31,600 nt of DNA from contig JAHBMJ010001305.1 in the NCBI GenBank assembly GCA_018398765.1, positions 1,409 to 33,008 on the forward strand. Direction: 5' to 3'. Below are positions 1,539 to 31,454 of this stretch, one piece after another. The notes below the pieces were generated by a model. It saw only the letters and a list, made by a program, of their open reading frames with translations, was not told the DNA's origin and ran no database searches. Origin of the DNA: Chromera velia. Taxonomy: Eukaryota > Sar > Chromeraceae. The position numbers and the translations under genes were made by a program. The stretch's first letter is position 1. Each line of letters opens with the position of its first letter.

Positions 1539-3347
1539 TCACGATGCGAGCAGAGTTCTCACTCTGTCATCAAGGACTGCCTTGGAGAAGGTGCTGAAGG
1601 AATCCAAAATCTCCAGCGACACTGACGCCCCAGTATCGGACTGCGATGGAACTCCTCTCCCTTCTTCTGCCTCCGTGAAACTCCCTGCGTTCTCATTACC
1701 ATTCTTTGGCTTTCTGAAGACGACAAAGTGCGGCAACGCACGCACACCCAGAGACTTACACCACCCTTTGGTAGCTTCGAAGTCCACTTGACACAGACAA
1801 ACTCTTCCGTCTCTGTAAGCGAGACGCTCACACAAATTTGCAAAGTCTTCTTCCCTCTTTTCACAAGCCTTGCACCAGTCTGCGCGCACCATCACCACCG
1901 CACTAGAGCACCCCGACCGTCCCACCTCACGCGCGACGTCGTCCACACACGCCACAGATGGCAGACGCGCAAAGGAGTCGCTCAACACACGAGACACCCC
2001 CCCCTCTGAAGAGGAGACAGACTCCATTCCCTCCCACTCGGGCGCTTCCTCGTCCTCTGACTCTTCTCCCCCGTCTCTGAACCCGCACCTTTTGAGAGAC
2101 TCCGGCTCTCGAGGCCAGTTCAATGCCTCCCAATAATCCTCCCATCCTTTCCCCTTGCGACCCAAAACAAACTCACTCTGCGAACTCAATGCAGAGAGGG
2201 CAAAACCAAGTGCCAGACACCCCGTGACACTCAATTCTGCTTTCTTCTTCCCATCAGACGCGGCAGCTGCAGACTGCGAAAGAAAGGGCAGCGCATTTCC
2301 AAGAAACGAAAGCGTGCGAGGGGCAAACAGGCCCTCATCAAGGAGAGAAAGCAGGGCAGCAGGTGCAACACTCGCATATCTAAACAAACACTCAGAAGAA
2401 CCCCTCTCGGCCTCTCCCCATCTGTCGGCCAAGAGATTTCTCTGCAGCTCATCCTCACACCCTACTGTGTCGAGGACAAAACACTTCTCCCCCCCACTCC
2501 CCCTCAACGAGTCAATAGTACCTGTCTCCCCCTCTAGAGCCTCTATCGCAACCTCTACAAAACTCCTCCCCTCACTAGCATCCTCAACTAACACAGCCCC
2601 CCCGAGTCGCGTGAAGGCATCGCGCTCTGCCTCTCCCATCTGCCTTGATGTGCACACGGCTACACGCGCACCCATTGCTCTTGCAAGGGTTAAGGCAACT
2701 GCTGCGGCAAGCCCAGCACCCAGCACCACCACAACTTTCCCCTTGAGGGAATCAGAGGTGGCCCGGTAAGCCTGTGCCTCTCCCTTCCCTTGAAAGGGAA
2801 CCAGGCGAGACAGCGCGGCCATCACAGACAAAGAGATGGCTGAGAGTTCGGGCAGCAGTGGGGACTCTCCAAGTTTGTCGGAGACGGGAAAAGAATGTCT
2901 TGTGTCGAAATCGGATTCCGAAGAACCGCCATCTTTTACACTGACGAGCCGTGTACCCTCAGTGATCTCAGATACACTCTCAGGACCTTTCAAATCAGAC
3001 CCAGCCGACGCATCCCCCCCCCCCTTGCTGGGTGATACACTCTCAGCCGCCGTCCCAATTGCCAAACGGATCACATGACCCTCCTCAGCAGACCCTTTTC
3101 GGACATTCCCCGGAGACGAATCTAAAATTCCTGCAGCAGCCAAGAGCTTCTCTGTCCCCAGAGGGGCGCCACTCACGGACACCCTTCGGACACGAACACG
3201 GCGAGACGGAACGGCCCCGTCTCCCACGGCCTGCCACGCCACTAAGCGGCGGAGGCGGCAGAGCCGACTTGAACTGCACAGAGCTCTCCCTATACAAAAG
3301 CTTGCCAGCGTAAGGCAGATACAGAACAATAATTTTTGGGGTCTCAT
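1539..3347 (-). CDS. Secretory/plastid-type preprotein with Rossmann-like and C-terminal thioredoxin-like domains
   Basis: An intronless 602-aa frame ending in TGA. The first residues (MRPQKLLFCICLTLASFC) form a signal peptide, followed by an Arg/Ser-rich stretch. That is the bipartite pattern of nuclear proteins sent to a complex plastid, so plastid targeting is inferred. At about residue 200 a strand and glycine loop (KVVVVLGAGLAAA) begins a Rossmann-type nucleotide-binding fold. At about 487-545 lies a thioredoxin fold with the redox pair in ADWCKACEK and a later RALPHF that supplies the cis-Pro. The region between them is acidic and unrecognised. A dithiol-disulfide role is likely from the CxxC motif; the substrate is unknown. 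The start is the first Met and gives the only frame with a signal peptide. It lies divergent from the caspase-like gene. Confidence 0.8.
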   Translation of the reverse strand: MRPQKLLFCICLTLASFCIGRALCSSSRLCRLRRLVAWQAVGDGAVPSRRVRVRRVSVSGAPLGTEKLLAAAGILDSSPGNVRKGSAEEGHVIRLAIGTAAESVSPSKGGGDASAGSDLKGPESVSEITEGTRLVSVKDGGSSESDFDTRHSFPVSDKLGESPLLPELSAISLSVMAALSRLVPFQGKGEAQAYRATSDSLKGKVVVVLGAGLAAAVALTLARAMGARVAVCTSRQMGEAERDAFTRLGGAVLVEDASEGRSFVEVAIEALEGETGTIDSLRGSGGEKCFVLDTVGCEDELQRNLLADRWGEAERGSSECLFRYASVAPAALLSLLDEGLFAPRTLSFLGNALPFLSQSAAAASDGKKKAELSVTGCLALGFALSALSSQSEFVLGRKGKGWEDYWEALNWPREPESLKRCGFRDGGEESEDEEAPEWEGMESVSSSEGGVSRVLSDSFARLPSVACVDDVAREVGRSGCSSAVVMVRADWCKACEKREEDFANLCERLAYRDGRVCLCQVDFEATKGWCKSLGVRALPHFVVFRKPKNGNENAGSFTEAEEGRGVPSQSDTGASVSLEILDSFSTFSKAVLDDRVRTLLAS

Positions 3348-4132
3348 ACGGCACGGAGTGAAATAATATCCAAAGTCTGTGGAACTACGAAGTCTAAATC
3401 AAGACTGTCAACTAACCACGCCAGTTTGAAAAGGCTCCGCTTATGACCGACTCAAAGAGCCTTAAATAATTGGCACTCTGCTGTCTCTTACCCTGATCTC
3501 CCTCTTGTGCACTGGGCCCGCATCCTCACAAACAAATGTAGCGCAGAGTTCGGGACTTCAATGAGAGACGGAACGCCCCAATCCGTCTCCTTTCTTTTGC
3601 AGAGAAATCTCTGTGACACGCCTGCACTTCCGCTGCGATTCTCGATGCCGGAAGCAACTGCTCTGGGAATGGATTTTCTCGCTGCAGAACTGATGATTTC
3701 AGTCACCAGCTACATCAGTTCAGTTGGATAAATGTGGATGTGACGGCCGGTGGCATGCCGGTGGCAGACGGAGAATGACGGTGGGTGATCGGTGGGTGCG
3801 ACTGCCATGCATGGGTCGGCCGCGCGCGCGTTCACTGCGCGCCCGCGGCCCCGAAATTGGGCCCGAAAGACCTCTTTCTGTGCACTGTTGTGCATGCGAA
3901 ATGATACGCGACCCAGAAATCGGCTCACCGAAAGGAAGTCTTCCATGATTGCAGACTGGCACATACTGACACGCACGGAAGCTGTGACTTGTTTATACGT
4001 AGGCGTGTTATTCGCAATTGTGCACGGTAATAAGCACTTCCTCGAGCACTTCATTCGTGTGGACTGAGGGCGCGCACTAATCCATCCCGAGGAGAGAGGG
4101 AGGGGCGCTGACCCAAAGAGAGAAGGAGGGGG
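3348..4132. promoter_or_regulatory. Divergent intergenic region (probable shared promoter)
   Basis: This 785-base spacer separates the start of the minus-strand thioredoxin-like gene from the start of the plus-strand caspase-like gene, so both promoters should lie here. It holds GCATGC-type palindromes near 3805-3815 and 3890, of the kind clustered at 15.1-15.3 kb. An in-frame TGA at about 4109-4111 closes the caspase frame upstream of its ATG. Short frames in this stretch overlap on both strands and show no domain. No clear TATA box can be claimed. Confidence 0.4.
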
Positions 4133-7100
4133 ATGTGGTGGAAAGGGGCGGGATGGGATCCTGCCTCTGCAGGCCGCCACGCTATTGTGATAGGGAACGA
4201 TCAGTACACGTCGGGACTGTCGAACTCGAGGCAGAGTGCGAAGAGATTCCACGAGGTTCTTGTGTCGAGGTACTCATTCAAGACCGTCTACCTCGAGAAT
4301 GCAACAAACCAACAAATGGTGTCTGCCGGCACAGACCTTGTCAGGCGGTGTCGCGTGTCGTCGTCGAAGACCCCCATCGCCGTCTTATTCTTTTCAGGAC
4401 ACTCGGAGAGTAGGGACAACAAGCAGGTCCTCCTAGGTATTGACGTCAAAGTGGTCAGTCAGTCTGTCAGTTTGAGTAGAAACGCACCTTCCGACCTTTT
4501 GATACATGTGCATATGATTCCAAACTTGATCTCTCTTTATTGATCTATGCAGGGTCTTTTCGGCGCAAGGGCTTGTTTTGACCTTCAGAAGTTTGCAAAA
4601 GACCTCGCGGGTTCTGCCCCTGCAACCCGTCTACTCTTATTTTTAGACACAGGCAGAGTGGAGGTATCTCCTGAGGTGGCGGACCTCGCAGGTCTCGAGG
4701 CGTACTCCAACCTTCTACAGCGGCCCAGTGCCTCTCCCCTAGGGCACTTGAGCATACCGCCTGTGCTTTCACACCTTGTGCTTTCTGCCTGTGAGCCCAG
4801 CGCCTTCGTCACCCTTGCACGGTCGGGGGAGACGGGGCTGGAGGACGCAGAGGTGCCCCCGTCTGCGTTCACAGATGCGCTGTCGAAAGTTTTGTCTTCT
4901 GATGGTGCGATCGGGGGAGAAGGGAGTGGGGCGGAGAAAGAAGGGGTGATGGCGGGAAAAGGAGGAGTGCCACTTGTGGACCTTGTGAGTCGTCAAGTGA
5001 AGTCTGTCTTCAAGGAGACGGGAGGAAGGGAATGCCCCTGGCTGTGGACAAATTTTAGGGAACCCTGGGTGCTCACGGTCAGTCTGTCAATTCTTTCGTT
5101 CTATTTCACTGGAGTCGTTTCTGTGACAGTGAAAGGGGTCGAGCAGGAAAGGCTCCTTCGTACTGCGTCTAAAGAAAGTCTCTCCCTTGGACTCTTTGTT
5201 TCGATCCCCAGCCCTTTCGAGATCTGATGGGTCTGCTTTGAATCTCTCTGCCCTGTCCTTTCTTGCTCTTGTCTGTATCTTGAATGAATCCGCATGTCGC
5301 ACTTTCATTCTGACATCTGCCTCCCAGTTTTCTGGCTGCCTGTCTCCCTGCGACTCTTCCCTTTTGACCCCTTTTCGCTTTCCGCCTTTCATCCTCTCTC
5401 ATTGCAGCCGGTGATCAAACAACAACAGCAAGAGGGAGGGGGGGCGGTGGCGGTGCAACCACAGGGATCTCCTTCTCCCCGCCCGTCGCGCCTGTCTGTG
5501 CCCCCCCCCGGTTCCGCTCCGCCTTCCTCTGCCCCTGCTCTTTCTTCCTGTCTCTCCCCCTCTGCCTCCGCCCAGGCAGCAGATGAGGAGGAGGCAAGCA
5601 GCCCGTCCGAGGGACCAGATGCTAGTCTCCGATCTCCCGCGCTGTCTCCCTTCCAGAAGATCCCCACAGAACCGGATCAAGAGGAAAGCACAGGGTGGGC
5701 TGGGGGGAAGGATAGCTCGGCAGGCCCCATACTGCCTATAGAAGAAGTGCAGGACGCAGGAGGGGAGGTGCCAGTCACCTCTGTTCCCCCGGATGATTCC
5801 AAACCCGCCCCCGCATCGTCACCCGACCGCAAGGGCTCGCAAAGGAGGGGACGGCGGAGGAGTGCCCCGAAGGCTGCTGAAGGTACTCACTATTTATTAG
5901 CGGCAGTCGATGGTGACGGGGAGGGGGGGGGCCTTTCTTCGTCCTCTTCTGTGATGCCAGAGGGTCCAGACGGCCGGGGCCCTTCAGGTACCGTTGGGGG
6001 CCCTCAGCAGCAACAGCCGCCCCCGGCAGAGTTCCTTGAAGACCTCTTGGGTGTGGTGAGGTATGAGCGGAAAGGGGAGGAAGATGGGGTGATTGATAAC
6101 GCACCCACAGCAGAGGGGGGGACTGAAAAAATTCTAGATGCAATTGACAAGCCAGAATCCTCCCAATCCCCCCCGCCCCTTTTGTCTTCCTCTTCTTCTG
6201 CGTACTGCGGGACGATTCCGACAGTCCAAATTCGCCTCCCGTCTCCTCAAGAGCAGTCAGCTTCACCGTCTGCAGGTGGAGTGGTCACAGCTCTGGTGGT
6301 GAACAACCGGGACATTCCCAGTGCATCAGGGTCGGGTAACTCCCCGGGCGGGCTTTCCTCGAGTGCTCTGTCTCCTGAGCAGCAGAGTCCTCCGGGGGAT
6401 TGTGCAAGTCCCCCGTCTCCAATAGCGGTGGGGGAGGAAGAGGAGGAGGATTTACTGTCGTTTGATCTTCCCGACCCGTTTACGTCTCATGAGATCTTTT
6501 CGGGATCGGGGCCGCGCGTCCGGCTCCCCCTAGGCACCGATGGGTGTCTAGTTTATGAGGGGGGGTCCGATGCGGAGGGGGGTAGGTCGGGTAGCGGCGT
6601 CGCTTTTTGGGCGAACGGCGATAAGTTTACGGGAAGTTTTGAAAAGGGAGTGCGGGAAGGGGAGGGTATCTATTGGTGGTTCGAGGGAGGGAGGTATGCA
6701 GGGCAGTGGGTCGAGGACAAACGTGAAGGGAAGGGAGTTTTTCTCTTTCCAGATGACTGCAGTGTGTATGAGGGGGGGTGGGAGAAGGATGTTATGCATG
6801 GGCCCGGAAGGATGCTGTTCGGGGTTGACCATTGGTTAACTCCCCGTGTCAACCGGGGAGAGGGGGGGGATGGAAAAGAGAAAGAGCAAACGCATGATGT
6901 AGTGCTGAACGCCGATGGGTGTGCTTTTTGGGGAGAGTGGAAAGAAGGAAGCCCAGATGGGTTTGGGGTTTTAATTGATGTTGCAAAGAGAGTTTTGTTT
7001 GGGGGGATTTGGAGTAGGGGGCAGCCTGTCTCGAGGTGTCCTCCTCCTGCGGGGGTGGACATCCCGTCTTTTCCAAATTGGTCGGTGCGTGGGGTGGACA

Positions 7101-9649
7101 TGGGGAGTCGGGGCACTTTGAACGAATCCTCCGGGTCGTCCCGAGTGGGCGCCGCCGCAGCGTCCCCCGGTGTCTCTCCGGATGCCCAGACTTCCTCTTC
7201 AGCAGGCGGAGGGGACAGAGGAAAGTCATTTGGGACCGCTGTGGAGGAGGGGGGGCTGAGTCTGGAGTCGTACATCAACGAGACTCAGACTGAATTGGGG
7301 GTGCGGAGTGGCGCACCTGCCTCCGCTTCGTCAGAGCAGGAGGCAGCAGCAGCAGCTGCAGCGGGGCAGCTGGGGGGTCCCCAGGCGGTTGTTGTGACCC
7401 AACCTTCTTTTATTGCGTGGTATATGCGAAAGAATAGGAAGAAGGACTTGAAGGCAGCCAAGAAAAACCTAGAGGAAGACGGAGGCAAGAAGGAAGGGGC
7501 GTCTGGTACAGAGCTTCAGTCAGCCTCCTCTTCCTCGTCTGCAGCTTTGCCGTCTCCCGATGCAGCCGCGGCCTCTTCCTCTCCTGCCCACCCTCTTTCT
7601 CTGATCCCTCCCCCACAAGACGCACCTGCCGATACACACACAGAAGCAGATGCAGGTGAGGTGGAGGAAATCGGAGTTCTCGACCCCGTTGCAGGGTCCG
7701 AGAATCCGGAGAGGGAAGTGTCACAGGGTGCACCGCAGATGGTCTCTATCGATCTTTTGGGATTAGATCAAACCGTCACGCAAGAGACGGGAGACGGCTC
7801 TGGAGGCGCGGCCGCTTCCGGTGGCCGCTCCTCCAGTGTCGCACCACAGGGGGCCTCCGCTGCAGCCGCTGCCTCCCGTGCGGTCCATATGCGCGCGCGT
7901 CGAGGGTTCTGCACTGTCGGGTGGCCGGAACCGACGGCCGCCCTGCAGGAGTATGTTGGGGAGAGGGAGACTGAGCCAGAGACAGAGGGTGCACCCCTGC
8001 AGCCCCACGGTAAAGGTGTGGCCACATTTGCAAATGGAGATCGGTATGAGGGCGATTTTGTCAGAGGTGCACGAGAGGGACGGGGTGTATATGCGCAGTC
8101 GGTTGGGGGAAAATATGACGGTAAGTGGTCGGGTGAGATGATGCACGGGTACGGGTCTTTTGCCTTTCCCGATGGCATCACTCGTTATGAAGGGGGGTGG
8201 GTGGAGAATCGGATGGAGGGGTATGGAGTGATGCACTATGGCATCGTGGAAGGGTCAAAGAACGCGTATCGGTATGAGGGGCAGTGGCGTGCTGATTTAC
8301 AGCACGGTCACGGTACGTTCATCAGTCCTGAGGGGAAAACGATCTACGGAGGGAGGTGGACGCTAGGACAGCCCCACAAGCTGGGTGCTCGTATGAAGCG
8401 TCTGGCAGTGGACTTCATGGAATCCATGCCTGTGATTGGCCACGTGACCTCTCTCGGGTATACCATCAGGGGTGATACAGATAGCGCCAAGAGGGCAGCT
8501 GGGAAGGCGACGTCGAATATGTTGAGTTTGGGAGGGGCGATTGCCGGAGGGCTGGTCATGGGTCCTCTGGGGGCTGTTGCCGGTGCGATGGCTGGCTGTG
8601 CGGTTGGTCAGGTTGGAGAGATGGGGGTGAACACAACGATCCTCGACAAGAACAAACGCTCTGCAAAGGGAACGTGAGTTGAGGAGGAATCTTTTTTGCG
8701 CGGTCGACCGCATGTACAGATAGATGGTTGAGGAACGCGTGTATTCCCATATTCAGTGTGATGGCAGCCGGATGGGCATAGTAATTTTGATCAGATTGAG
8801 AACAGGCAGACAGTCTCCATTCTTTCGTTTCACAGTCACTCGGGCGTTTGCGTGATAGACTGTATTCTAGTGTTTGGTTCTTGACTCCGTCTCTTCTTTT
8901 GGAAAGAATTTGTTTTCCGTTTGTCGTTCCGTATTCGCATTTTTGAGGTTTGCAGTGGCCTTGGGATGGTTATACAACGGTTTTCAATTGCCTTTCTGCG
9001 GCTGTACGTGCGGTTTTTTTTGTGTTGCAGGTTTCGAGACTTCAAAGCCGTGGACTCGAGCGTTGAGATTGCCGTGTCGGGTGCAGTGTCGGGTCTGACG
9101 GCCGGACTTGCCTCGGGCATGGGGACAGTGTTGGCGAACCACGCTGCGAACACAGCGTCTGTGGTTGCAGACCCTTTCCAGAGAGTGGCAACGAAATACG
9201 TGGCCTCGAAAGGTGTTAGCGAGGGCGTGAAGCGACACAGGCGATCGAAAAAGGGGGGGAAGGACAGTGGCACGAGTTCCCAGGATGGGGGGACAGATAC
9301 GCCCGCGTCAGGAGGCGGGGGTAGTGGAGTGAAAAAGAAAGACAGCCTGGCGTGTGAGCGGATTGATGAGGAGACAGAGGCAGAGGATGAGGAGGATGAC
9401 GATGAGTTTTTTGGTCTTGTCGGAGATGGAGCCTCTGCTCCTGCGTCGGCTGCGGCAGCAGGCAGTGGGAGTGGAGCGTCGGCTGGGAAGGAGAAGGCGA
9501 AGGATGGGGGGGAGAGTTCAGGAAGGCGAAAGAAAGAGAAGGAGGATGAAAAGAAAAATGCTGCGGCTGCTGCAGCTGTGGCTCGAGAGCAAAGACTTCG
9601 GGAGTGGGAAAGAAAAGAAAAGGATCGCAAATGGCGAGAGAAGGGCTAG
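4133..9649 (+). CDS. Pseudocaspase-MORN repeat-glycine zipper protein (4 exons, ~1,576 aa)
   Basis: Exons 4133-4453, 4553-5077, 5408-8673 and 9031-9649; introns 4454-4552 and 5078-5407 are phase 0 and 8674-9030 is phase 2, all GT-AG. Residues ~15-280 are a C14 caspase-like domain: RHAIVIGNDQY, the His motif FFSGHS (His90), then LLLFLDTGRVE (~134-144) where the family has D-x-C, and LSACEPSAF of the p10-like part. The catalytic Cys is thus replaced by Gly141, so it is probably inactive. A long Ser/Pro/Gly-rich linker follows. MORN block 1 (~660-820) has about four motifs (for example YAGQWVEDKREGKGVF) and block 2 (~1148-1270) has about four more (YEGGWVENRMEGYGV). Then comes a Gly/Ala zipper (~1320-1400, interrupted by intron 3) and a charged Lys/Glu tail. 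MORN repeats usually bind lipid or scaffold proteins at membranes. The start is uncertain: a CTGCAG just before GCCGCCACG (about 4172) could instead be an acceptor from an unseen upstream exon. Confidence 0.82.
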
Positions 9650-13094: not shown

Positions 13095-13353
13095 GGACAG
13101 AGAGACAGAGAGGTAAAGGAATGGAGAAACGATGAGATCTGAATGCATGTGTACATGCATGAATGGATGCTGGGAGGCCACAAGTACGGAAAGTGTATCA
13201 CTTATCTGAATCTCAGTCTGTCTGCCTGTTGACCTACCCCCAAATGTTTAATGTCTGCATGACGTCTCCCGCTTTTGTTTTGAGAGCCTGGAGAGAGAGA
13301 GGGAGAGAGAGACAGAGAGAGACAGAGAGAGGGAGAGAGACACAGGGAGAGAC

Positions 13354-13408
<55 letters not shown>

Positions 13409-13441
13409 GACAGAGACAGAGACAGAGACAGAGCCTAGAGA

Positions 13442-13492
<51 letters not shown>

Positions 13493-14231
13493 AGAAAAAT
13501 GTCAGACCCCCTAGTACAGTACGAAGAACCCACACCGACCTGCACGACAGCATCCCCACAGAAAGTGCAGCTGCTCCTGTACCCCTCTTCACTCGGAGTT
13601 CCTCCCGTAAAGATGGGCGTCCTGTTCGTCATAGGGTGCTCTGGCTCGCAGGTCTCCGCGCCCTGTAGACAGGCAGGCAGGCAGGCAAGCAGGCAGGCAG
13701 GCAAGCAGGAAGACAGGCAAGCAGGCAGGCAGGCAGGCAGGCAGGCCAAAAGGGACTACATGGTTTCACGCATGCATGCCTATGAATCGATCGCAGACGA
13801 CTCTCTTGATGCTGGACTTCGTCAATCGGTTGTCTCCTGATTGTAAGTGCACAAATTTAAGCCTAATCAGTGTTGCGCAGACTGTTGGGAGGGCCATGCA
13901 TGAAAAGTCGATCTCTCTTAGGAAAAGCCTCAGCGAGTGGAAATAAGCATTCAAAATAAATACGCATGCACAAGCCCGTTGTGCAAACCGACGTACGCCC
14001 CGACGGACGGACGGACGGACGGACGGACCTGAAGGATCCCATCCCCACAGAAGGTGCAGTCCTCCCTGCAACCGCTCTCGAAGGGGAGGTCCAAAAGAAC
14101 ACCCCGTCCGAAAATTGGAGTTCCTTCTTTTGAAGAGTCGAAAGGCTCGCCTGCGTGGGTCAGGAGGCGGAAGTTCAGTGTACATGCATCGATGTATGAA
14201 AATTTGCATATAAAACAGGGTGCAATACCGC

Positions 14232-18174: not shown

Positions 18175-20136
18175 CTATGAATCTCCTACGGATCGCGGCA
18201 CCAATAGTATGCGCGGCTCAAAAGCCGTTGTGGCTGCCTTTATCGCCGACTGATATTCGTCCCCCGCGGGTGCGTGCACCTCAACGCCTTCCACCCCCTT
18301 CTCTTTTGTCCCCCTAACTGCACTAACCTCCCTTCCTAGTGCTCTGGTTGCCTGGTGACTTAGTCCTCTTAACACTCGATCTGTTACCTTTTCTTTCCTG
18401 TGAACATCTCCGCTCATCCGAGACAGACTGTCTGCCTCTGTGTTCTCGGCGCCTGGGATGTGCACTGCCACGACCTCCACCTTTGCCTTCCTTTCAATCG
18501 TTTGAATCTCCTCTACAATGTCTCCCAAGGCCGCGGCTGCGCTGTGACGGTTGTTAATAATCCTCACTGTCACGCTGTTATCTGAGCAGACCACAATCCT
18601 CCCATTCTCGCTCCCTGCCCCTAATTTTGTAAATACCTGCAAGCATCGTAGCACCATCTTTGCCTCTCTTCAGTTAGATGAGCATACTGCTTGCTTTCCC
18701 GACCATCTCCACCAAATAGGGTTGCCTTTCCACACACCACCTCCCCCTGTCCCCGCCGCATCCCCTCTGATCACGGCTACCCCTTGGGGGATATCTTTCC
18801 ATGACGCTACCCAATCTGCTTCCCACACATCTAGACAGCCGGTGGGCGTCACATATAACTGCCTAACTGGTCTTTTTTCAACTGCGGACTTCCACCAATT
18901 CAATGACCTTACCATCTCTTTGCTCAGCTCTAACCCTCCTTTTTTCCATTTCCTCCATTCCATCTTTGACGTTGGCTGTACCGCTGGCGAGAACGCCCGC
19001 CAAAACGGGGCCAGTTTTTGCCCTCCGTGTCTCACAATAAGTCTCAGATGGTTCAGCAGACCCACTGTCTGAAGCCCTTGGGCAATGGTCGCTCTTCCTT
19101 CCCCTGCCGCCTGCATCAGCTCAGCAATTCTTTTTAGGGCCTTTTCCGTCTTACGCGGGGAGATATACAAAAACAATCTCTTCGTGTTTATGCCAATTCC
19201 GGTGAACTCCAATGCCTGTGTTGGTTCAACGGTTTTCAATTCTTTCACTTTCCATTCCATCTGTGCTAAGATTCTAAGTGCAAGCTGCAGGGCCTCTTTT
19301 GCTTCTTTTTCTGTGCTTGCTGTTATCAGAAAATCATCGATATAATTCAGTGACCGAATCGTTGCTGTGTGTATGCCAAACCGTTTGAACACTCTCTGGA
19401 TGTGCTCCATTGTACCTTGAAAAATAAACGGAGCGACTTTCAGGCCGAAACACATCACTCTGTAGCGATAGAAGGACTGGGTCGCTGGGTTGAAAAACCC
19501 TAGCAAATCGACATGCTCTGGGTGAATCTTGATGTGAAAGTACCCATCCTGCAAATCCAACTTTGCCATATGTTCTCCTGAGCGCAACAGCCTCAACGCA
19601 TGACGCACTGTTGGTAGCCCCATCACTGTGTCTCTTGTCGCTTTGTTTACCCCGGATGCTGTCATATCTATGATGATACGCGGCTTGTCCAATTCTGGCT
19701 TAGGTACTGCTCCCAAGGAGGATACAATATGGGGTTGTTTCGTCACTCTTTCAATAAATCCTTCCCTCTTCAGGCGATCAAATTCCTGACCCACTTTCTC
19801 TTCCCACTCTACGAGTGAGGAGTAATTTTCCATTTGAAAGCTTGGGGGCCAGTATTCTAGTGGAAGTTTCACACCTTCTTCTAACTGCTGTACTAGCCTG
19901 CCATCCATCCCAAACTCTCTCATTCTCTCACAATCAAGCTGCAACCCCTTTGCTCAGCATTCAGGTGTCACCCAACCTGGCGGTGGCTCCACTTGCGGTT
20001 TTGAAATGCTCCATTCTTCCAATGGCAGCGCCCACTTAGATTTTAGTGGTGGCAGTGGCTTGCCCCCTCCCTCCAGTCCGTGACCTGCACACAAAATTTT
20101 TGTATACTTAGATTCACTAATTTTGTACTGCAATCT
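18175..20136 (-). pseudogene. Reverse transcriptase/RNase H of the DIRS-like element (two in-frame TGA)
   Basis: One frame from just after a TAG at 20139-20137 to a stop at 18175, interrupted by TGA at 19956-19954 and 18672-18670. RT motifs in order: VPKPELDKPRIIIDM, AKLDLQDGYFHIKI (motif A), MCFGLKVAPFIFQ (motif B) and LNYIDDFLI (motif C, about 19333-19344). The RNase H part has VVCSDNSVTVRIINN and HIPGAENTEADSLSR, typical of DIRS elements. The second TGA follows SSN where these proteins usually have a Trp (N-W-x-E), so it looks like TGG to TGA. Host genes nearby use TGA as a stop, so recoding is unlikely. Confidence 0.88.
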
Positions 20137-23804: not shown

Positions 23805-24119
23805 AGAACTTTAGATGACCGGCCGGGGACGTTCGGACCTCAAAGCATGGATGCATGCATGTGCATTTCGGGTGAACGGCGAAAGCAGGATTCAATCAAT
23901 CCCCGTCTGTGCACGCAATGATGTCGTCATTTCAATACAAAGCTGCATGAGTGGCACTGTGAACCTCCAGTAGCTTCGTGTACAGCATTTTTGCAGTGCC
24001 TTTGAATCTGATTCTTTCCCACTTGCTTACTTTCTCTCTTTTTGGTTTTTTCAAATGCAACTCGTCCTGGTCTGTCTCTCTGTTAGTTTGAAAATCCGTC
24101 TTTCTATGTGTTCCCCTGC

Positions 24120-24121
24120 CC

Positions 24122-24152
<31 letters not shown>

Positions 24153-24473
24153 ATATACGTATGTTTGTCTGTCTGTCTGTCTGTCCTGTCTGTCCTGTCT
24201 GTCCTGTCTGTCCTGTCTGTCCTGTCTGTCCTGTCTGTCCTGTCTGTCCTGTCTGTCCTCTGTGTCTGTCCTCTGTGTCTGTCCTCTGTGTCTGTCCTCT
24301 GTGTCTGTCCTCTGTGTCTGTCCTCTGTGTCTGTCCTCTGTGTCTGTCCTGTCTGTCCTGTCTGTCCTCTGTGTCTGTCCTGTCTGTCCTGTCTGTCCTG
24401 TCTGTCCTGTCTGTCCTGTCTGTCCTGTCTGTCCTGTCTGTCCTGTCTGTCCTGTCTGTCCTCTGTGTGTGTG

Positions 24474-24511
<38 letters not shown>

Positions 24512-24552
24512 TGTCTGTCTGTCTGCCTGTCTGCCTGTTTGTCTGTCTGAAC
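24120..24552. repeat. Higher-order CTGT-type satellite
   Basis: Nested organisation on the + strand: (CTGT)n, then about eight 9-bp units CCTGTCTGT from 24185, about seven 13-bp units CCTCTGTGTCTGT from 24257, two 9-bp units, one 13-bp unit, about nine more 9-bp units, then (GT)n and (CTGT)n. Long frames across it (Thr-Asp-Arg or Cys-Leu-Ser strings) are repeat artefacts. Confidence 0.9.
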
Positions 24553-28300: not shown

Positions 28301-30473
28301 GAGGCCCCACCAACATGAAAGAAAAACACTGAAGACCAACTGGAGTTCCCGTCTTATCGACGCCCAGCTCCAGCAAAACAGGGACCAAGTCACTCCTTCC
28401 CGCCCGAATCACCGTGCAGAGAAAGTTGTCCTGCGGTTAGCAAGAATCGTTGCCAACATGCATTCTGTTTTACGTGGCTCTTGCTACGCAAACCGAGCTG
28501 CAGCGCAGGAAACCCCACACAACACTGGCTGCTGAGATGATCTCCGACGATCTCCCAACAAGAGAGGACAGCAGACACAAAACGAAGACATGTGCCGGAC
28601 ACACTCACAACAAAGTACACAACGGCGCGGACCCCATGACACTGAAAGAAAACCCAGACAACCAGGCGAAAGGCAAACAGAAAAGGGTCTCAAGAACAGA
28701 CAAGAGAAATACACTGAAGACTGACAGGAAATTCGTTCTTCATGTCGACGCCCAGCTCCCGCAAAACAGGGACCAAGTCACCCCTTCCCGCCCGAATCGC
28801 CGTGCGGAAAACGTTGTCCTGCGGTTTGTGGGATTTATTGTCAAGATTTGATCAATCTGGATGTTCTTGCGATACAATTGCAGCCCAAAGAGGCTCATCT
28901 GGAATGGCGGAACGCCGGCTGAGACGATCCTCCAGCGACCTGAGAGCTCAGTGTATGAAAATTGAACATACGTACAGGGCATGCTCACTACTAGGTACAC
29001 AACAGCACGGACCCCATTTTTATTCTCCTCAGACAGATCTTTCGGGTCGACTCTGTCCCCCAAGACCTTCATGGTCTCTGCGGAGATTCCGCCTGAGGCC
29101 ATCGCTTTCAGAATGTCCTCACGAGAATCTTCGAGCTGCACAAAGAGAGGGTGCAGTAGACGTATTTGTTGACTCCAAAGGACTTGAATCGGCAACACCA
29201 GAACACCAAGAATTCAGAAGACTTGGAGGTACGGCAAGAACCTCAAGCGGGAGATGAACGAACACACGAGAAGGCAAATTTCTCCAGAAAGTCAGGATTG
29301 GAGGTCAGGGGGAGATACCCTACTCACAAAGTGTTTTGCAGCAGCAAAAGATGTAAAGGTGTCCAGCATTGCGTCCAGAGACGTCGCTCGATCGTGTAGA
29401 AGAGCAACCTTCAGAGGGGTCTGCCCACTCTGCAGGAGAAAGCCAGAAGGGGTAAAATCAGAAGATACCGAATGAGGTTTGAGGTCTTTGGAAGTGAATG
29501 CATGTTATGAAACGTCCGCGATGGATTGACTCAAGGATCGGCTCAGGTACGCGGCTTCAAGAGACACACACCAAGCAATCCATCCGTCTGATAAAGTTGA
29601 CGGCCACAAAAGGCAAGGAAGCACCTGCATGTCGCGGCGATGAGAAGATACTGGGCTGTCCAAAACCATGATGGAAGGTGAGATTGACCGCGTGATTTCG
29701 GAACTTGGAATCACTCTTTCATTGCATGTGATAAATGGGACCATGTGCTGACTCGATTCTCCGCGTCGATCTGGGCTCCCTCCTCCATGAGCACCTCCAC
29801 CATCCTCCGCCCGACGTCGCCTTCCATTCGGGCCGCGATGTGCAACACGGTTTCGCCTCTCTGCATGGATAAAATGGACGGGACAATGAACCGGAGAAAG
29901 GGTTTTGACAGCGATTTGGCAATTAAGTTGAGGCACTTCCCCTTCAATCAGACAGGCACCAGAAGTACGCCGACTGACCACCGGTCCATTTACGTTTGCG
30001 CCTGCCGCCAGAAGACCTCGCACTCTTGACTCGTCCCCGTCTCTGACAGCCCCGGCAAGCTGTACGGCGTTGGCCTGCATGTGCACAAGTGATAAACAAT
30101 GACAAGTCTGTGTAGGCACATCTTCGCAAGAAAGCACGAGATTTCTCCGGCTGACTGACTGACTGACACACTGACTGACCTTTGCACGTGGGACTGTTGG
30201 CCTAGGATTCAGATGAACGACAGAGGGAGGAGAGGAGCTGGTCACTGTCGGAGCCTCTTGATATGCCCCTTCACTCGCTCCTTCTATCACATCGCTTGCG
30301 AGGGCAGACTCAGTCCCCCTGCCGCCTCCATTCTCTTCGAGAATACCGGAGGAGGCAATTCCGGAGACAGAGACGGTGGAGACGGGAGACGGCTGAAAGG
30401 TAGTCGCATTCGCCGACACAGGGTGCTCAGGAGCATGCAAATGTGAGCCATCCATGGGGTGAGCAGCTGACAT
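25336..30473 (-). CDS. Ankyrin-type repeat protein, about 14 phase-0 exons (~593 aa)
   Basis: Exons in transcript order: 30473-30180, 30074-29979, 29860-29753, 29429-29328, 29135-29013, 28818-28726, 28430-28341, 28096-28004, 27559-27497, 27076-26912, 26525-26346, 26151-25906, 25731-25663, 25395-25336. Exon 1 encodes a Ser/Thr/Pro-rich start (MSAAHPMDGSHLHAPEH). Most others hold one ankyrin-like unit each: VRDGDESRVRGLLAAGANVN, ETVLHIAARMEG, SGQTPLKVALLHD, RGDLVPFLLELGVDPN, SPLHMAVQLERLECARKLIA, LLAAVRKGCWEMVDALLAAG. Every intron is phase 0. Ankyrin repeats mediate protein binding; the partner is unknown. Uncertain points: exon 26151-25906 could instead end the protein at a TGA at 25902-25900, and a small extra exon at 26787-26722 (SLHLLANHSCAEIGRVLL) is possible. 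The first exons look soundest, the last two least. Confidence 0.7.
26950..27076 (-). repeat. 63-bp in-frame tandem duplication within an ankyrin exon
   Basis: CTGCAGACTGCCGG followed by TTC(A/T)TC.ATTGAAAGGGG occurs twice, 63 bases (21 codons) apart, giving LQTAGEARFSSIERG then LQTAGKMLFSSIERG. Each copy carries CTGCAG, so several in-phase 3' splice sites exist. Confidence 0.75.
28004..28818 (-). repeat. Tandem triplication of one ankyrin exon plus intron
   Basis: Three exons begin CAG|GACAAC and encode close variants of DN.(F/L).T.IRAGR.DLVP. with LGVD at the end (28818-28726, 28430-28341, 28096-28004). Acceptor spacing is 388 and 334 bases. Flanking intron sequence is also similar, with CCTATTTG and TTCTTTCTC blocks, so exon and intron were copied together. 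Confidence 0.85.
30151..30180. repeat. (GACT)n microsatellite forming a 5' splice site
   Basis: On the coding strand exon 1 of the ankyrin-type gene ends GCAAAG and the intron starts GTCAGTCAGTGTGTCAGTCAG. The donor lies inside the array. Confidence 0.7.
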
Positions 30474-31454
30474 GACTGCAAAGTATGATTAAAGAGCCCA
30501 CTTTCACCGAGTCTAAGGTTGCCCTGCTGTGATGGACTGAAAACCGCCAATTAAATTGCCAAGTTGGCCAAAGCACCCAGTTTCGGACGCTCTCACGCTT
30601 CGTGAGATTCTCACCGATTACAATGGGTTCCCGTACTTGGCTTTACCAAAGCTGTGTCAGTAGAGTCTCCTCTAAGTCTGCGTACTTCGGTGCAAGCTGC
30701 CATCAGTCTTCGGCAATTTAGAACACAGTAGAGAAAGTAAAGCATCGTACGTATAAAGCTGCACTTCAATTCAATTTGACGTCCGCCACCGAGCCATCAT
30801 GCGAGGACCGCGCGCGTGCGGTCTGAGGCATCAGACCGTGCGAATGGCCCCCCGGAAAGCAGAATTCCCGCCGAACACTGCAATATGCATCGCGCAACAA
30901 CATGCACCTGTATAGCTGCATGTACATCGACGAAATTGTTGGATACACTCTCGATCCAGCCACAACATCCCAGAACAACAGCTTCCCAACCAACGTACAG
31001 CAAAAATTCCAAACTGTTCAATAAACCTTTACAAATCCCCATCGAAGAGCATCTGTTCCGTCCTATGTGGCTTTCTAGTCACGATCTTTCCACACGGACG
31101 GGAATCAATTTCTTGAACGTTGCAAACGTGTTGCTGTCTCCTCAGTCCATATCTGGGCTGGGAGGAAATTTCTACGTGCTTTGGGAGAAAATTTGTGCGC
31201 GCCGCAGGCGCGAAAATTTTTTTTGCAGCACATGAAACGTACTGCCTGGGAGAAAATGGGAGAAATATACGAGTCATGGCCCACCACAGCGCCACAGCTC
31301 CCTTTGCATGCCGGGGTCCGTTGCCCGCACGTGCCCGCCTCGCCGTCTCCGTCTCCTGGCACCTACAGTCTCCAGGGTCAGATTACCATCTATCCATCTA
31401 TTGATTGATAGACCATCCTGCCCTGCCCACAATCAGTATCGCAATATTGACTTC
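30474..31454. other. Upstream region of the ankyrin-type gene; no gene recognised
   Basis: It contains the presumed promoter of the minus-strand ankyrin-type gene. A GTATAAAG at about 30751-30758 is of uncertain meaning because it is some 280 bases upstream and on the other strand. A plus-strand frame at 30816-31235 shows no domain. An imperfect inverted repeat lies at about 31188-31220 (AAAATTT, GCGCGCC, loop GCA, GGCGCG, AAAATTT). Confidence 0.4.

Follow-up and report, generated by a model that had tools for sequence, protein, structure and literature searches.

A predicted Chromera velia protein joins a probable pseudo-caspase domain to MORN repeats and glycine-rich stretches

A stretch of 31,600 nucleotides from Chromera velia (GenBank assembly GCA_018398765.1, contig JAHBMJ010001305.1, positions 1,409 to 33,008; the whole stretch is referred to below as the window) contains a predicted four-exon gene whose 1576-residue product joins a caspase-like domain of peptidase family C14 to two blocks of MORN repeats and two glycine-rich hydrophobic stretches. 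The caspase-like domain retains the catalytic histidine and, in the alignment that we prefer, presents glycine where the nucleophile cysteine is expected. We consider it likely that the domain is a true pseudo-caspase, also when a base error and another splice form are allowed for, and we moderately favour a single protein in which the caspase fold is catalytically dead and serves for binding, as a pseudo-caspase scaffold or regulator. Coordinates are those of the window, and all parts of the gene lie on its forward strand.

The caspase-like domain comprises residues 15–282 (4175–5077, spanning intron 1), as delimited by the Pfam profile PF00656 together with a match to the end of p10. Residues 15–273 align with profile positions 2–225 of 233, scoring 61.7 bits (cut-off 21.4, E 1.1e-16), and residues 245–281 match the p10 end of a profile of bacterial relatives at 18.7 bits, a score reached by 0 of 200 shuffles. 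By these matches the domain is predicted to be a C14 fold with p20 and p10 parts. Alignment columns place His90 (4400–4402), within the motif SGHS of residues 88–91, in the catalytic histidine column; the residue that follows it is Ser. The sequence-only reading of this DNA had proposed a caspase-like domain with this histidine motif, and both are borne out. Two results weigh against the assignment of p10: its strand and first helix match the bacterial profile weakly (11.7 bits, reached by 17 of 200 shuffles), and residues 152–282 alone matched no Pfam family. Searched against PDB as a single sequence, the domain found no C14 structure, its three chance-like matches being to TREX2 and Cap10. 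A profile of the protein with a paralog from the same assembly (L002) gave four PDB matches, the best of them metacaspase-4 at E 0.27, and a profile of the protein with four relatives (alignment A3) placed MALT1 first at E 5.9e-18 and metacaspase-4 next at E 2.7e-7, a signal that belongs mostly to the relatives. A plasmid search with the domain gave 17 records within E 1, the best at 8e-3. PADLOC and PHROGs gave no match at E 0.01 for the caspase or the zipper pieces, and the NCBIfam family caspase_w_EACC1 (21.7 bits, cut-off 140) was rejected.

The nucleophile site was located by comparison with bacterial C14 loci, the best 80 of at least 446 confirmed among at least 593 matched stretches. 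The search patterns prejudge the columns of the S1 Asp, the His and the following Gly and leave free the Asp, Cys and Arg of the D-x-C-R site. One locus with an internal stop (L051) was kept in the profile, alignment A5 took 56 of the 80 loci, and some open reading frames (ORFs) are cut at locus ends. By alignment column, His and Cys are present in all 80 bacterial rows (a regular expression for the dyad missed seven of them), and the Asp and Arg of D-x-C-R are likewise invariant. Pfam truncation tests, spacing and BLASTP with L002 place this site at Asp139-Thr140-Gly141-Arg142 (4646–4657), where Asp and Arg are kept and Gly stands for Cys. In truncated matches to the Pfam C14 profile, position 128 falls on Arg142, on the Arg of DCCR in the paralog L002 and on the Arg of DACR in a plasmid protein of Croceicoccus marinus; the offset of D-T-G-R is unchanged when the segment around Cys187, a competing candidate, is included. 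His90 and Gly141 are 51 residues apart, the spacing in the bacterial relatives being 51–109 with a median of 52 (n=80, by regular expression, the upper end uninspected). BLASTP against L002 (E 2e-7) pairs D-T-G-R with D-C-C-R, and once L002 is added, hhalign chooses Gly141 and scores 106–110 instead of 78–79; the hhalign probabilities refer to the whole match and not to the placement of the Cys. With two gap costs, the score of the part after His against L002 was reached by 24 or 13 of 1000 shuffles. That of the part after D-T-G was reached by 108 or 175 of 1000, which is not significant and tells against the placement.

The principal doubt concerns Cys187 (4790–4792, in the motif SAC). The domain could be an active or once-active caspase homolog with Cys187 as its nucleophile and D-T-G-R within an insert of about 46 residues, and several alignments to the bacterial profile speak for this and against Gly141. 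Residues 182–209, Cys187 among them, give an ungapped match to the catalytic strand and loop of the bacterial profile (columns 117–144), scoring 18.2 bits in one test (0 of 200 shuffles) and 18.5 bits in another (0 of 300), whereas the D-T-G stretch, residues 108–146, reaches 8.8 bits (36 of 300, not significant). Moreover, Cys187 is chosen by MAFFT, by a weak second HMMER domain (5.2 bits) and by hhalign with the protein's own sequence alone. The catalytic-column match of residues 182–209 (4775–4858) is unexplained: it exceeds what a place in p10 predicts, as if the region were duplicated. Against Cys187, however, the wider C14 model of Pfam puts D-T-G-R at the site and the motif FTDAL in p10. 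The match of residues 1–225 ends at profile position 193 on residue 223, ten past the F of FTDAL, and that of L002 ends at the same position on residue 204, ten past the F of FTRAL; given this common end point, Cys187 would lie before the p10 helix, and we read it as the start of p10. L002 carries both DCCR and, about 50 residues later, an ACAP strand within one open frame. As a control on the bacterial profile, its p10 part falls on p10 columns (19.3 bits, 0 of 200 shuffles), the part after DCCR has no match to the catalytic columns (33 of 200), and the DCCR stretch itself is weak (20 of 200). With Cys187 as nucleophile, the spacing from His90 would be 97 instead of a median of 52, the invariant Asp and Arg would become Ser and Glu, and no strand would be left for p10. 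In a test of 170 anchor residues Gly141 scored best, and the path through Cys187 was 37 bits lower.

The placement at Gly141 is therefore the better one: it follows the family-wide model, accords with the spacing and with L002, retains Asp and Arg, and does not deprive p10 of its strand. We regard it as very probable that Gly141 occupies the nucleophile column, and quite improbable that the domain is an active or once-active homolog working through Cys187. A structural alignment with another cysteine in the active site had been named beforehand as grounds for giving up the pseudo-caspase; sequence alignments to that effect exist on the bacterial profile, and the balance favours Gly141. With Gly141 at the site, the domain probably lacks the D-x-C cysteine that an active C14 peptidase carries. 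The proposed D-T-G in place of D-x-C can accordingly be retained as a probable Cys-to-Gly replacement, and the loss of protease chemistry that had been claimed would follow, with similar caution, from the retained His and this replacement.

A specificity-pocket residue is altered as well. Alignment to the bacterial rows and the paralogs places Ser35 (4235–4237) in the column of the NDA-motif Asp, which in Trypanosoma brucei MCA2 is named as one of two acidic residues of the S1 pocket (PMC6426788). This column holds Asp in all 80 bacterial rows, partly through selection by the search pattern, and also in the paralogs L002 and L005. Of the two pocket acids on which metacaspase and orthocaspase specificity rests, Asp139 is kept and the other is Ser35. 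Since both the nucleophile Cys and one S1 Asp appear lost, cleavage by this domain is improbable, and so is the usual mode of holding a basic residue. These changes also bear on whether residue 141 is truly Cys, hidden by a sequence error or a recent allele. A single base suffices to turn Gly into Cys, which speaks against our assignment; but the loss of the S1 Asp and the Ser after His point to relaxed catalytic constraint, and the frame is intact across 4731 coding bases, so that we think an error or allele of this kind very unlikely.

The gene model links the caspase part to the rest of the protein. The predicted coding sequence (4133–9649) consists of exons at 4133–4453, 4553–5077, 5408–8673 and 9031–9649, which join in frame to 1576 residues and end with a TAG stop at 9647–9649. 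All three introns that had been proposed hold as GT-AG introns: intron 1 (4454–4552, 99 bases), intron 2 (5078–5407, 330 bases) and intron 3 (8674–9030, 357 bases). Composition separates the exons (T 0.16–0.23, GC 0.55–0.60) from the introns (T 0.35–0.37, GC 0.40–0.49). Introns 1 and 2 have GTCAGT donors and TGCAG acceptors, and intron 3 has GTGAGT and TTGCAG. For comparison, 18 junctions were taken from 23 of 38 HSP70 matches in the same assembly by picking the best-scoring GT or AG near the match ends; these junctions are score-picked and not proven. GTCAGT occurs in the donor zone of 5 of the 18, and 16 of the 18 acceptors end in CAG. The donors and acceptors of introns 1–3 resemble these picks, which makes the joins look unexceptional in this genome.

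The model suggests that the caspase and MORN parts belong to one chain, intron 2 being the sole link between them. The same DNA could instead comprise two adjacent genes, exons 1 and 2 encoding a short pseudo-caspase and exons 3 and 4 a separate protein with the MORN repeats and glycine zipper, as the frame of exon 3 is open upstream to 5288 and has an ATG at 5294. The two would, however, be only 330 bases apart, and the bounds of this gap, donor ACG/GTCAGT and acceptor TTGCAG, resemble the sites picked in the HSP70 genes. Its T and GC content resembles that of an intron, though intergenic DNA could show the same, and exon 2 ends in phase a few residues past the PW motif of the C14 domain. We judge two genes unlikely and continue with a single chain.

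The HSP70 junctions also bear on splicing within the caspase domain, where a form lacking part of exon 2 might restore a Cys at caspase spacing. The examined part of exon 2 contains 35 in-frame, stop-free GT-AG pairs, and 14 of the resulting forms score above the 35.0 bits of the unspliced sequence on the bacterial profile; among them, removal of 4611–4742 (38.4 bits) brings Cys187 to the site. Yet its donor, CGG/GTTCTG, scores 1 of 5, compared with 2–5 for the picked HSP70 donors, the removed stretch is exon-like (T 0.24, GC 0.58), and the form scores 56.3 on Pfam, compared with 61.9 unspliced. The best-scoring form (41.8 bits) retains D-T-G, with a Pfam score of 58.1 and a donor that again scores 1 of 5. 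Moreover, the removed part is similar to L002, where it lies in one open frame. A Cys-restoring transcript, which had been put forward as a possible refutation, is thus conceivable in frame, but given its poor donor and lower Pfam score we hold it to be extremely improbable, and the unspliced exon 2 with Gly141 is kept.

Downstream of the caspase domain, MORN profile matches of 64.0 and 76.1 bits (cut-off 22.5) cover four and five stretches in the two pieces scanned, in keeping with the eight or so motifs first counted. Block 1 spans residues ~661–825 (6542–7036) and block 2 residues ~1143–1275 (7988–8386); the latter also matches structures in PDB, MORN1 at E 4.4e-32 and junctophilin-1 at E 1.4e-15. 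The repeats had been taken for membrane-associated modules. This part of the claim is not supported by TbMORN1, which is described as lacking membrane or vesicle binding, while MORN1 is shown as dimers (PMC7725318, whose data concern MORN1 only). From these data the MORN blocks are better read, by analogy, as putative dimerisation or docking modules than as membrane binders.

The motif GxxxGxxxGxxxG occurs twice (residues 1337 and 1388), in hydrophobic stretches near the C terminus (8411–8611, also rich in Ala, and 9056–9133) that are followed by a low-complexity charged tail recognised by eye (9134–9646). The Gly/Ala zipper of the sequence-only reading is thus seen as two four-glycine runs, with moderate backing from shuffles: two or more runs arose in 303 of 50000 shuffles of residues 1280–1420, whereas shuffling the whole protein produced them 541 times in 5000. 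The highest Kyte-Doolittle mean over 19 residues is 1.68, a borderline value for a membrane segment, and the stretch could form a helical hairpin. No glycine-zipper family was found above cut-off in Pfam or NCBIfam, and none in PHROGs, PDB or plasmids; DUF456, DUF1269 and pdsO all scored below cut-off. The glycine zipper is the weakest part of the observation.

How such a protein might work can be outlined. It would cut nothing. The MORN blocks would dimerise it or dock it on the membrane skeleton or a structural complex, as in MORN1, and the glycine-rich stretch may insert in, or pack against, a membrane. The caspase fold would then bind a partner, possibly one of the Cys-bearing C14 proteins that the genome encodes, which it would regulate or place, much as FLIP(L) does with caspase-8. 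That dead caspase folds can act is indicated by FLIP(L), a human pseudo-caspase that regulates caspase-8 (PMC7586951), and by the pseudo-orthocaspase SyOC, whose deletion changed stress tolerance, raising that to oxidative stress (PMC7889975). Both the partner and the location of the protein are what we infer here, and this weighs against the proposal. A bolder version, which we hold only as a doubtful suggestion, is that a dead caspase fold came to serve the membrane skeleton or membrane contact sites in a structural or sensory role, with the MORN blocks tying it to the skeleton, the glycine-zipper hairpin tying it to a membrane, and the caspase fold reading or holding a partner. If true, no earlier caspase-fold member of such a structure would be known within the searches made, and the protein would be a eukaryotic pseudo-caspase from neither trypanosomes nor animals. 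The roles of protist caspase homologs are disputed, and this homolog provides a test of whether the caspase fold does non-proteolytic work and of whether such homologs take part in structural complexes and not in cell death. Its nucleophile and one pocket acid are probably lost, yet the 1576-residue frame is intact.

Within the assembly (177.8 Mb, 4040 contigs) there are seven C14 places and at least 88 MORN matches, and both domains occur together on this contig only; no second contig with C14 and MORN was found, with 150 of 308 MORN candidates scored, and no second copy of the gene. A Cys-bearing D-x-C is present in three of the six other C14 places (L002, L005 and L007), the relevant exon not being found in the remaining three. 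The paralog L002 (contig C398, reverse strand, match 1501–2112) has two Cys in its D-C-C-R motif, and the frame downstream of it looks ankyrin-like by eye. Pattern scans of viral contigs matched 14 and 40 stretches, of which none was confirmed. MORN block 2 matched 17 plasmid records, none annotated as a caspase and several without annotation. Literature searches covering open-licence papers listed no eukaryotic caspase–MORN protein. The architecture had been called undescribed, and for eukaryotes this stands within these searches; more broadly it does not, as pseudo-caspases are already known in bacteria (PMC6426788), as are MORN–metacaspase fusions, with MORN first (PMC4933709).

The remainder of the window contains other features. 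On the reverse strand, a 619-residue open frame (1539–3398) has a C-terminal thioredoxin domain (PF00085, E 4e-7), preceded by a long N-terminal region in which AlaDh_PNT_C matches below threshold; a reverse transcriptase frame (18670–19953; PF00078, E 1.4e-19) represents a piece of a retroelement; and a 327-residue open frame (29505–30488) has a stretch that looks ankyrin-like by eye and matches no Pfam family at E 0.01. Long simple repeats, CTGT-type and GAGA arrays, lie at 24116–24549 and 13291–13495.

Among known systems, bacterial orthocaspases and MALT1-type paracaspases stand close to this protein, and its bacterial relatives share the p20–p10 layout with it; His, Cys and the S1 Asp are present in all 80 bacterial rows, whereas the C. 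velia protein does not have the full set. Also close are the pseudo-orthocaspases, C14/p20 domains with a substituted dyad, which account for 858 of 9,994 bacterial orthocaspases and alongside which T. brucei MCA4 is named (PMC6426788). The dyads found named in that paper's partial text are YS, YN, YA, FS, QC, HA and YG; the HG of the present protein, which stands for HC and in a eukaryotic genome, is not among them, and the term MORN does not occur in the paper. The two pocket Asp of pseudo-orthocaspases are described there as highly conserved, whereas one is Ser35 here. With FLIP(L) the likeness is one of working model, a dead caspase paralog regulating an active one. FLIP(L) is a metazoan caspase homolog and has death-effector domains instead of MORN repeats. 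MORN1 and the junctophilins share the MORN repeats, block 2 matching both; neither is known to have a caspase domain. In junctophilins the MORN repeats are joined to a C-terminal membrane anchor.

A related architecture is that of the bacterial MORN–metacaspase fusions, which likewise carry MORN repeats and C14 in one chain. Six such sequences, in which a metacaspase comes after one to four MORN repeats, are listed from metagenomes and metatranscriptomes (PMC4933709). In our own set, a strict regular expression found MORN in none of the 80 bacterial C14 ORFs, and a small home-made profile, built partly from the repeats of L097 and of the C. velia protein, found it in one, L097 itself; MORN was present in 4 of the 13 genomes examined in this comparison. 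One Saprospiraceae genome encodes two such proteins, L097 (ORF 1903–3663) and L127 (reverse strand), both with N-terminal MORN repeats, intact FAGHG or YAGHG and DACR motifs, and a chain that ends with the C14 domain; by eye, their starts look like signal peptides. In these two, MORN comes first and C14 last with the dyad intact, whereas in the C. velia protein the order is reversed and the Cys is probably lost. The bacterial fusions, with their intact dyad, are the natural comparison for it.

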